Assembly (NCBI GenBank): GCA_913065105.1
Contig: CAJXZZ010000014.1
Coordinates: forward strand, 1 to 45,286
Length of the DNA stretch: 45,286 nucleotides
Direction of reading: 5' to 3'
Source: an uncultured Gammaproteobacteria bacterium
GTDB lineage: Bacteria > Pseudomonadota > Gammaproteobacteria > SZUA-229
Under the pieces are notes generated by a model that ran no database searches, was not told the DNA's origin, and worked only from the letters and a program-made list of their open reading frames with translations. This document shows positions 21,574-44,228 of the stretch, in pieces. The position numbers and the translations under genes were made by a program. The number at the start of each line of letters is the position of its first letter. The stretch's first letter is position 1.

Positions 21574-22689
21574 ATGATTAAAAGCTATCTTTCATATAGC
21601 CTGAATAAGCTCACTGTGTTCGCCATTATGTTTTTGCTTACTGGTTGCGACGCTAGCTTCGTTGACTCCGAGCAATCGCTGGGCACCAATGATAGTCGTT
21701 CCGTCGTATTGGCTGATATCGATGCTGACGGTGATCTGGACATGGTGGTGGCAAATCAAAACCAGGGTAACCGGGTCTATCTTAACGATGGCGCAGGTAG
21801 TTTCAGCGATTCCGATTTATCTCTGGGTGAAAATAGTAGTCAGTCTATCGCTCTGGGTGATGTCGATGGCGACACCGATCTTGATATGGCGGTGGCGAAC
21901 CAGAATCAAGGAAACCTGATCTATCTCAACGACGGCACGGGCGATTTCAGCGATTCCGGTCTGTCTCTGGGTGAAAATAATAGTTACTCTGTCGCACTTG
22001 GCGATGTCGATGGCGACACCGATCTGGATCTAGTGGTAGCGAACCAGAATCAGGCGAACCTGGTCTACTTCAACGATGGCCTTGGCGGCTTCAGTGATTC
22101 CGCTCAGTTACTCGGTGAGAATGATAGCCGCTGCGTCGCTCTGGGTGATGTCGATGGTGACGGTTTTCTGGATATAGTCGTGGCCAATCAAAGCCAGGCA
22201 AATCAGATCTACCTCAACGATAATTTTGGTTATTTCTACGCATCTGGTCAATTACTGGGAGAGAACGATAGTAACGCCGTAGTATTGCGCGATATCGATG
22301 GCGACAGTGACCTGGATATAGTGGTGGCGAATCAAAATCAAGGAAACCGGGTCTATATCAACAACGGCATAGGTCATTTTATCGATTCGGGTCAGTCACT
22401 GGGGGCAAATGATAGTCGCGCCATAGCATTAGGTGATATCGATAACGACGGTGACCTGGATATGGTAGTAGCGAATAAAAATCAGGGAAACCGAGTCTAT
22501 ACCAACAACGGTTCCGGCGGTTTCAGTGATGACGACCAGTCTTTGGGCGATAATAGCAGTCAATCAATTGCTCTGGGTGATCTGAATGGCGACGGCGTTT
22601 TGAGTATGGTGGTGGCGAATGCTGGCCAGGGAAATCGTGTTTACAATTACGTAAAAGAAAAATTCAATCTATTCCAAACAGTTGATTAA
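21574..22689 (+). CDS. FG-GAP/VCBS repeat lipoprotein (seven-bladed propeller)
   Basis: The ATG at 21574 gives a lipoprotein signal with the lipobox LLTGC. A frame extending to 21523 is less suitable. The mature protein is seven tandem repeats of about 48 residues (144 bp each). Each has the pattern SLGENDSxSVALGDVDGD, then LDMVVANQNQGN, then VYLNDG and GFSDS. The DxDxDGxxD loops are calcium-binding-like. Seven FG-GAP/VCBS units suggest one closed seven-bladed beta-propeller. The role is likely surface display or adhesion. Repeats are well conserved at DNA level. The last blade has lost some consensus residues (LNGDGVLSM). Confidence 0.88.
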   Translation: MIKSYLSYSLNKLTVFAIMFLLTGCDASFVDSEQSLGTNDSRSVVLADIDADGDLDMVVANQNQGNRVYLNDGAGSFSDSDLSLGENSSQSIALGDVDGDTDLDMAVANQNQGNLIYLNDGTGDFSDSGLSLGENNSYSVALGDVDGDTDLDLVVANQNQANLVYFNDGLGGFSDSAQLLGENDSRCVALGDVDGDGFLDIVVANQSQANQIYLNDNFGYFYASGQLLGENDSNAVVLRDIDGDSDLDIVVANQNQGNRVYINNGIGHFIDSGQSLGANDSRAIALGDIDNDGDLDMVVANKNQGNRVYTNNGSGGFSDDDQSLGDNSSQSIALGDLNGDGVLSMVVANAGQGNRVYNYVKEKFNLFQTVD

Positions 22690-37270: not shown

Positions 37271-37345
37271 TTCTAACTTGTTGGTATGAAGCCTTCTAAG
37301 GCGTAATAACACGATATTTAAGCTGTAAAAGGCGCCTGTTATAAG
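37271..37345 (-). repeat. Weak attC-like site
   Basis: Outer boxes CTTATAAC and GTTAGAAG bracket 75 bp, but the inner arms pair poorly and about 130 bp separate the left box from the preceding stop codon. Tentative. Confidence 0.4.
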
Positions 37346-37476
37346 TAAGTATTAATATTGATACATCATTAAAAATCACCGGGTGTAATCTGTTTTATTT
37401 TTCCGCCATAAAAATTTTTGATATATCTAAATCTGTACTCTCATCACTTTAATAGGAGATGGGATGGAGTGATTAT

Positions 37477-42096: not shown

Positions 42097-42159
42097 AGTT
42101 AACGTTCGAATTAAGTGGCCGTAGCGAAGCGGAGGTCGCGCTTGAACGATTTGTTATTT
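42097..42159 (-). repeat. attC site
   Basis: AAATAACAAATCGTTCAAGCGCG opens and CGAACGTTAACT closes this 63-bp site. The arms pair around a CTTCGCTACGG loop. Its left part lies within the 66-bp repeat shared with 43361-43426. Confidence 0.88.
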
Positions 42160-42211
42160 TTTTATTGGCTGACACCTTCAATGCCTTCCTCGTCTTTAAT
42201 TATTAGTGGCT
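42146..42211. repeat. 66-bp direct repeat, copy 1
   Basis: Identical base for base to 43361-43426. It covers the edge of an attC site and a stretch that, in copy 2, is the 3' end of the amidohydrolase gene. Here the same DNA includes the last codons of the 69-residue protein in another frame. Confidence 0.95.
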
Positions 42212-42405
42212 GATGATATTATTTTTAATGGCTTCCCTTCCTGAGAATTAATTATTAACCCACAAGCCAAAGAATATAAAAGCCAGCGAACAATTCCCTC
42301 ATTTACTCCTGTTTGGCCATGTAGCTCCGGCTTTGTTATTGCCACTGCACCGATAACTCCTAAAATACCAACAAATGCAATACGACCGGTATTATCACTA
42401 CTCAT
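42196..42405 (-). CDS. Small membrane protein coupled to the hydrolase gene
   Basis: A 69-residue protein with two weakly hydrophobic segments (GRIAFVGILGVIGAVAIT and RWLLYSLACGLIINS). Its ATG overlaps the hydrolase stop in ATGA, a sign of translational coupling. The last few codons lie inside the 66-bp repeat, so the original C-terminus may have been replaced. No family recognised. Confidence 0.65.
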   Translation of the reverse strand: MSSDNTGRIAFVGILGVIGAVAITKPELHGQTGVNEGIVRWLLYSLACGLIINSQEGKPLKIISSATNN

Positions 42406-43247
42406 TGGCCATCACCCTCGCTTGAAAAGCTCACCAAATGATCAAGCACAGATTTCATCCTTTTATTATGGATAGCTAAACTTTGATCCATAAAAGGATG
42501 AGAATACTCTGCCCCATCAATTACAGATGCTCCTCTCTTTTTAGCTTCCATTCGAAGTAGGGATGTCATACCCTCTTTTAACACTGGGTCTTTTGCTCCA
42601 GTAATTACTAGTAACTTCCCAGAGTCATCTGGGAGATTAGCTACTGGATCGATTCGTTCAGGACAACCATGTTCAGACAATAAGCTCGGACTCGAATCTA
42701 TAACAGCAGCATCATAATCTACTCCAGAGCCAATTGCGTTTAACAGAATCGCACCGCCAAGTGATATTCCGTACAACAACTTCCTTTCATATTTTTCATT
42801 TAAGAATGAGATAATTTCTTTATAATCTTCAATAATTGCATTAATTCTTCTTTTTCCTTCTGAGTTTCCATATCCTCTGTAATCAAAAATGTATACATCA
42901 TAATTTTCCTCTGAAAAAACCTTTAAGTGAGAAATAATCTGGTCGGAAATCATTGCGTTTCCTAGGGCCATCAAAATATAACCTTTAGAGTTTGTTCTAT
43001 TCCCTTTCCCATCATTTGACAAATATTTATACCCGCTAAGGGTTTTCCTATCAGACGTTTTAAACGTCGTAACTTCTACAAATTTTAAACCGCTTGTTCT
43101 ACTTGCATCGGGATCAGGTGCTGCGGAACTCCAAAACCAAAACAATAAAGGCTCTTTAATAAATCCACAAATAGATTTCTCCCGTTCATCAGCCCAGGCA
43201 CCTGCTGAAAACAAAAGCATAAATACTAGAAAGATTGAAGATCTCAT
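42402..43247 (-). CDS. Periplasmic alpha/beta hydrolase (cassette gene)
   Basis: The ATG at 43247 opens a signal peptide ending AWA and has a GGATATAG ribosome binding site. A frame from 43286 would extend into attC DNA. The domain shows YIFDYRGYGNSEGKR, the GISLGGA nucleophile elbow, ITGAKDPVLKEG (acid region) and a histidine in EYSHPFMD. This resembles BEM46-like or dienelactone-type hydrolases. It is a cassette relative of the chromosomal hydrolase at 6135. The following small gene is coupled to it. Confidence 0.85.
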   Translation of the reverse strand: MRSSIFLVFMLLFSAGAWADEREKSICGFIKEPLLFWFWSSAAPDPDASRTSGLKFVEVTTFKTSDRKTLSGYKYLSNDGKGNRTNSKGYILMALGNAMISDQIISHLKVFSEENYDVYIFDYRGYGNSEGKRRINAIIEDYKEIISFLNEKYERKLLYGISLGGAILLNAIGSGVDYDAAVIDSSPSLLSEHGCPERIDPVANLPDDSGKLLVITGAKDPVLKEGMTSLLRMEAKKRGASVIDGAEYSHPFMDQSLAIHNKRMKSVLDHLVSFSSEGDGQ

Positions 43248-43284
43248 ATCTATATCCTTATGATGAATGAATTTAACTATAAGC

Positions 43285-43374
43285 AACTAACGTTTGAGTT
43301 AACCGGCCGTTATATACAGAGCAGAGCGAAGCGGCGCGGCGTATAAAACGGTCGGGTTGGACGATTTGTTATTT
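43285..43374 (-). repeat. attC site
   Basis: AAATAACAAATCGTCC opens and CAAACGTTAGTT closes this 90-bp site. The arms AACC-C-GACCGTTTTATAC and GTATATAACGG-CCGGTT pair well. The loop GCCGCGCCGCTTCGCTCTGC is nearly that of 41521. Confidence 0.92.
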
Positions 43375-43426
43375 TTTTATTGGCTGACACCTTCAATGCC
43401 TTCCTCGTCTTTAATTATTAGTGGCT
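43361..43426. repeat. 66-bp direct repeat, copy 2
   Basis: The copy at the 3' end of the amidohydrolase gene and the start of its attC. It is identical to 42146-42211. Confidence 0.95.
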
Positions 43427-44228
43427 TATTATATAATTTTGCGGCATTGATGAATGCCAGCTGCACTGCGATATCGTCTGGTAGCTGTGCTAGCCAGTTA
43501 CGTATAGTTCCGACCGCAGAATCGAGCATTTGCCAGCGTTCTGTGCTGTATGTATCGACGCCAATCATAAACCGATCAGGATAAGTGACAAAAAGTTCAT
43601 ACCAGTCATCACTAATTATTCCATCTGGTGCAATGCGCTCATCCCGCATAGAAACATCGATCGACAGGTTTGGATAGCGGCGCAGGTAATCTGACACCAG
43701 ATCAGGGTAAGGAAAGGTGCCAGCATGCGCCCAGATAACCGGTTGCTTTGGTGCTATCTCATATAGTTTATCGATAACGGCCGGGTCGCCATGAATCAAA
43801 AGTGGTAATTGCCGCGCAGAAGCCAGAGTAATCACTTTTTTAAATACCTTACTATGACGATCACGAGCAAAAATATGTAGCTCGCCAATGCCGCGCCAGT
43901 AACCACGCTCAAGCTCTTTTTCTAAATAAGGAATTAACGTTTTATCATTTGTCCATGTGGTTTTATCTACGCTATGGCGATAAACACCAAGTAAAGGCAC
44001 AATGCGCTCAGGCGCCAGGTGATATAGTTTACTCACGTGCTCAGGCGGTGTACCGGTAACGGCTGCATAATGGATGGCGTTTTTATCTAACAGATCGATA
44101 ATTGCCTGCGGATTAAAACGGTGCGCATCTTCCGCTGAATAATGCAGGTGAGAATCAAACAAAGGCTGCGCGGAAAGACGCAGCGAAAACAATAAAACCA
44201 ACAGTCCACAGCAAAACCTAAATGGCAT
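43377..44228 (-). CDS. Periplasmic amidohydrolase-like TIM-barrel protein (cassette gene)
   Basis: A signal peptide (ending LSA, about residue 20) precedes an amidohydrolase-2-type barrel. The metal-ligand-like motifs are FDSHLHYS, LLIHGDP, WAHAG and the terminal aspartate in GVDTYS. A conserved GIGELHIF strand is also seen. It would hydrolyse or decarboxylate a small molecule in the periplasm; the substrate is unknown. GC content is higher than in nearby cassette genes. Its last 50 bases are part of the repeat also found at 42146. Confidence 0.87.
   Translation of the reverse strand: MPFRFCCGLLVLLFSLRLSAQPLFDSHLHYSAEDAHRFNPQAIIDLLDKNAIHYAAVTGTPPEHVSKLYHLAPERIVPLLGVYRHSVDKTTWTNDKTLIPYLEKELERGYWRGIGELHIFARDRHSKVFKKVITLASARQLPLLIHGDPAVIDKLYEIAPKQPVIWAHAGTFPYPDLVSDYLRRYPNLSIDVSMRDERIAPDGIISDDWYELFVTYPDRFMIGVDTYSTERWQMLDSAVGTIRNWLAQLPDDIAVQLAFINAAKLYNKPLIIKDEEGIEGVSQ

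Follow-up and report, generated by a model that had tools for sequence, protein, structure and literature searches.

A delimited 66-bp tract shared by two neighbouring cassettes of an integron array may be a trace of gene conversion

The window, that is, the whole stretch of 45,286 bp that was analysed, is a complete contig (C14) of a 3.06-Mb genome assembled in 147 contigs. From about 36.8 kb to the contig end, its minus strand carries a series of same-strand genes, each followed by an attC site with R''/L''...L'/R' boxes. Six to seven such sites lie between 36765 and 44433 on the minus strand, and the contig terminates within the series. Judged from this layout, the minus-strand region is an integron gene cassette array of the sedentary type. 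A profile search with TIGR02249 detected no integron integrase gene on C14; the genome contains two intI genes, on contigs C59 and C10, both scoring above the TIGR02249 cut-off. Three sequences (window 37285-37446; C66 (L104):853-1107; C98 (L112):632-899) resemble the attI/promoter-like region upstream of both intI genes, and tblastn revealed no integrase fragments beside them. They are possible orphan attI copies, one of which would lie within the C14 array.

Two neighbouring cassettes of the array are considered here. Directly after cassette Y (amidohydrolase gene, T, attC D) comes cassette X (hydrolase gene, 69-residue ORF, T, attC C), where T denotes the gene-side part of a repeated tract, about 60 bp, lying beyond the R''/L'' edge of attC. 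Cassette X extends from 43290 down to 42103. In order of reading on the minus strand, the features are as follows.

43377-44228, minus strand: amidohydrolase / TatD-like metal-dependent hydrolase of 283 aa (Pfam), the likely donor gene
43361-43426, minus strand: right repeat copy, with amidohydrolase codons 269-283 and the stop, a short spacer, R'' and the edge of L'' of attC D
43286-43373, minus strand: attC D of the amidohydrolase cassette, 88-bp type
42402-43247, minus strand: alpha/beta hydrolase (S33 / Hydrolase_4, Pfam)
42196-42405, minus strand: 69-residue ORF, its start overlapping the hydrolase stop (ATGA) and its last codons and stop lying inside the repeat
42212-42225, minus strand: AT-rich near-match, 11/14 identical to 43427-43440, the probable gene-side junction of the copied tract
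42146-42211, minus strand: left repeat copy, out of the amidohydrolase frame and running into R''/L'' of attC C
42099-42158, minus strand: attC C of the hydrolase cassette, of a ~57-bp type common in the genome and family

An earlier note on this DNA had described a perfect 66-bp direct repeat around the hydrolase cassette, and this is borne out, as 42146-42211 and 43361-43426 are identical across 66 bp. No other exact direct repeat in the window is as long, the runner-up measuring 23 bp, and chance origin is not a serious explanation. Elsewhere in the window, internal repeats with a 144-bp period occupy 21664-22636 in an FG-GAP repeat protein gene. Ungapped similarity between the two copies extends to 84 bp at 95% identity (42142-42225 versus 43357-43440). 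All four mismatches fall at the two ends of this alignment and three of them lie in the AT-rich stretch, hence this stretch resembles a decayed copy less than a near-match that was already there and served as a junction. A near-match this good was obtained for only 20 of 200,000 random 14-mer pairs from the array, so it is rarer than expected by chance.

The repeat takes the same position in both cassettes, comprising the R''/L'' edge of attC and T. Starting inside L'', the shared tract passes through R'' and a short spacer into the last 15 amidohydrolase codons, and the attC edge common to both sites is TTGRACGATTTGTTAT (about 16 bp). The right copy had been read as the amidohydrolase C-terminus plus the start of its attC; it does cover residues 269-283, the stop codon, R'' and part of L'' of attC D. 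The left copy had been said to follow the 69-residue gene in another frame. The frame is indeed different, but the copy overlaps the last codons of that gene rather than following it. The tract is identical, homology is present at both borders (the attC edge and the 11/14 AT-rich near-match) and the flanks are unrelated, a pattern expected of a gene conversion tract. The repeat may be a trace of such conversion between cassettes.

The bodies of attC C and attC D differ in length and sequence and belong to separate types, each common in related genomes without T. Contigs C27, C104 and C126 also carry the ~57-bp type of attC C, as do other genera of the family. For attC D, the identity is 97.6% to an attC on C66, where the gene-side flanks differ, and 83-92% to further sites of the family and class. 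Because the bodies are of different types and each occurs elsewhere without T, only the tract from attC to gene was shared. T is ruled out as a portion of attC, since matches of attC C elsewhere end at about R''. Integrase cleavage at R'' is not favoured as the cause of the repeat, as the identity passes R'' into L''; this is weak evidence, CAAATCG being present in other attC sites.

Family conservation of the amidohydrolase ends at K268, exactly where the repeat begins, and the C-terminal ending within T is PLIIKDEEGIEGVSQ. Relatives of the amidohydrolase have natural tails of similar length; none was found in viral contigs. In the amidohydrolase frame, T scores a codon log-odds of 5.1 bits, a value typical of real coding 45-mers here; of random open 45-mers with the same composition, only 1.3% score as high. 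Both other forward frames of T contain stops. In cassette X, T is out of the amidohydrolase frame and lies mostly behind a stop codon.

Cassettes related to X occur in MAGs of Gammaproteobacteria and Desulfobacterota. What they have in common with it is the cassette start and roughly the first 20 codons of the small ORF; their tails are unrelated. Between L117 and L118, two of these relatives, the identity is 98.9% until an abrupt break in the tail. The hydrolases of these relatives are about 60-73% identical, too distant to be a direct ancestor, and neither an uncopied version nor a direct ancestor of cassette X or Y was found. Cassette X contains two ORFs and one attC. Because the hydrolase has the small ORF beside it in other cassettes too, this ORF is apparently not a second cassette itself, and only T looks foreign in X. 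At the start of the small ORF (42331-42405), the motif S/N-D-x-x-G-R-x-A-F-x-G-I/M-L-G-V is kept behind the hydrolase in two phyla (L117, L118, L119, L121). Substitutions between the relatives and the window copy cluster at third codon positions, suggesting that the ORF encodes a genuine small protein under translational coupling. The earlier proposal that the hydrolase cassette may have gained a foreign 3' end is supported by the coding of T in the amidohydrolase frame only and by the unrelated tails of X relatives, and on the same grounds cassette X is favoured as the likely recipient.

Conservation of T in unrelated genes elsewhere would speak against the reading proposed in the earlier note, as that note had pointed out. 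No such case was found in the genome, the relatives, the class, the species contigs, the viral contigs or an attC survey. Specifically, T did not occur in the remainder of this genome, and no DNA match covering it was found among 145 relatives or among 369 genomes of the class. Its exact core was absent from a contig set of 84,980 species genomes and from viral contigs. The whole stretch gave no match to plasmids.

For 111 attC sites of this genome and its family, giving 6,105 pairs, the 300 bp lying upstream were then surveyed for tail sharing. RNAalifold found no structure in the attC alignment, and the attC model (R1) was therefore based on sequence only; since the surveyed sites were picked by this model, which was built partly from the same sites, the survey is not exhaustive. 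Sequence sharing upstream of attC was observed in 9 of the 6,105 pairs. In seven of the nine, the shared sequence continues across the cassette or as far as a contig end, and these pairs are apparently homologous over the whole cassette. Another one (C104/C131) represents IS110/IS1111-type elements inserted in attC. The elements themselves (C104 (L102):9145-9389 and C131 (L110):2360-3521; DEDD transposase) are inserted on the R'' side of an attC site, a different one in each case, and in this they resemble the IS1111-attC group known from the literature. T is ruled out as a mobile end of this kind, as the analogue is an IS110/IS1111-type element and T is without such a gene. Among the 6,105 pairs, a short tail with a border on either side is present in the X/Y pair only, whose cassettes are neighbours. 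A single case in so many pairs suggests that such tail-copy events are rare or quickly lost.

One short, non-reciprocal copy from Y to X, made by gene conversion or by replication template switching, is to our judgement a moderately probable origin of the repeat, and it explains the data with the fewest steps. The end of the amidohydrolase gene and the attC edge of donor Y would have been copied onto the neighbour X. The copied tract would have the shared attC edge as one border and, as the other, an AT-rich stretch similar to Y even before the event. Cassette X would have retained its own gene and attC C, with the last ~66 bp of Y replacing its earlier tail. Such a step might have been carried out by RecA-dependent conversion or by template switching at an attC hairpin. 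The data themselves show the repeat, where it sits, that it is unique among the sequences searched and that it has coding character in Y. We infer the direction, the single event and a replication or repair mechanism; the evidence on direction consists of the short coding test and the divergent relatives. Against the copy from Y to X, the amidohydrolase is conserved only up to the repeat border, so T could be foreign to Y instead.

The main rival is a fused cassette made by deletion, which we regard as possible but rather unlikely. It supposes that a second amidohydrolase cassette once lay downstream of X, and that a deletion joined the 69-residue ORF to the last 66-80 bp of that second copy, together with its attC. 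Loss of a first attC giving fused cassettes is described (PMC4670013), the near-match junction fits, and whole-cassette duplicates do exist in this genome (C101/C140). The duplicate in question, C101 (L107):5838-7168 versus C140 (L111):1267-2594, is cassette-sized (1.3 kb) and 96% identical. However, the attC after the left T is neither attC D nor a derivative of it but another common type, hence the lost amidohydrolase copy must already have carried a different attC. Nor is a second amidohydrolase cassette left in the genome, where the other two amidohydrolase matches are only about 30% identical. Tandem duplication with deletion, as raised in the earlier note, is likewise possible but less economical, because the attC sites after the two T copies differ in type. 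The exchange might also have run in reverse, with T native to X and copied onto the amidohydrolase to give it a new 15-residue C-terminus. The exact coincidence of the conservation limit with the repeat border would agree with this, as would the G+C content, which at 35% for T differs less from that of X (37%) than from that of the amidohydrolase (46%). Nevertheless, the coding character of T is good in the frame of the amidohydrolase, most of T follows a stop in X, and tails of similar length are natural among amidohydrolase relatives, which makes the reverse direction improbable.

An assembly artefact would be conceivable in a draft of 147 contigs, at a repetitive array inside which the contig itself ends. 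We consider it improbable, as the similarity goes on imperfectly on either side of the repeat, each attC suits its cassette end, and cassette X up to the small ORF is backed by independent MAGs. It is scarcely credible that T is a conserved functional element, such as a terminator, a translation signal or a recombination enhancer, kept identical by selection. T does lie equally far from attC in both cassettes, but it is absent from all other examined cassettes, and just one of its two copies is coding for the greater part of its length. Furthermore, no stable fold of T was found on either strand, and the folds of T and attC C were no better than those of shuffles. The functional-element reading is thus already largely refuted. 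The repeat is real, local and probably recent. Under the preferred reading of a single copy from Y to X, it would be a small-scale rearrangement of a familiar type that can here be read with unusual ease.

The repeat would also have consequences for the array. Recombination between the copies, plausible at a length of 66 bp, would delete cassette X, after which attC C would stand behind the amidohydrolase. The integrase, by recombining attC D with attC C, would excise the same cassette X and retain attC D; the residual attC (C versus D) would tell these two routes apart. As a broader idea, attC sites might regularly provoke copying of neighbouring gene ends through stalled replication or short homology, with cassette 3' ends being shuffled independently of integrase. 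We hold this generalisation to be unlikely. If it were true, the X/Y pair would be a clean fossil of such integrase-independent shuffling, and the shuffling would be a route for genes to gain or change the attC side. The X/Y tract bears on the question of how 3' ends and attC sites of cassettes are gained and altered.

In a small search of the open-access literature, no account of a delimited tail copy like that of X/Y was found; three described systems come close to it. Fused gene cassettes arising from loss of the first attC, e.g. blaGES-1/aacA4 (PMC4670013), are similar to cassette X in having two ORFs, a foreign-looking 3' part and a single attC for the unit. In contrast to them, no more than a short piece of the donor gene is present in X, and it is followed by an attC of another type than the donor's. 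Hybrid attC sites, e.g. attC arr-3/catB3 (PMC5454043), likewise show a homology break inside attC, with the two sides possibly derived from different cassettes. However, attC C and attC D look complete for their types, and only the L''/R'' edge and the gene tail are shared. Gene conversion between 59-base elements has been proposed for Vibrio arrays and suggested to homogenise attC sites (PMC1382264), and the event favoured here would resemble it as a short, non-reciprocal tract passing between cassettes via attC homology. Whereas the Vibrio proposal was derived from overall attC similarity, the X/Y tract is delimitable because it spills into unrelated genes. A delimited tract in two neighbouring, unrelated cassettes would provide one concrete case for integrase-independent exchange.
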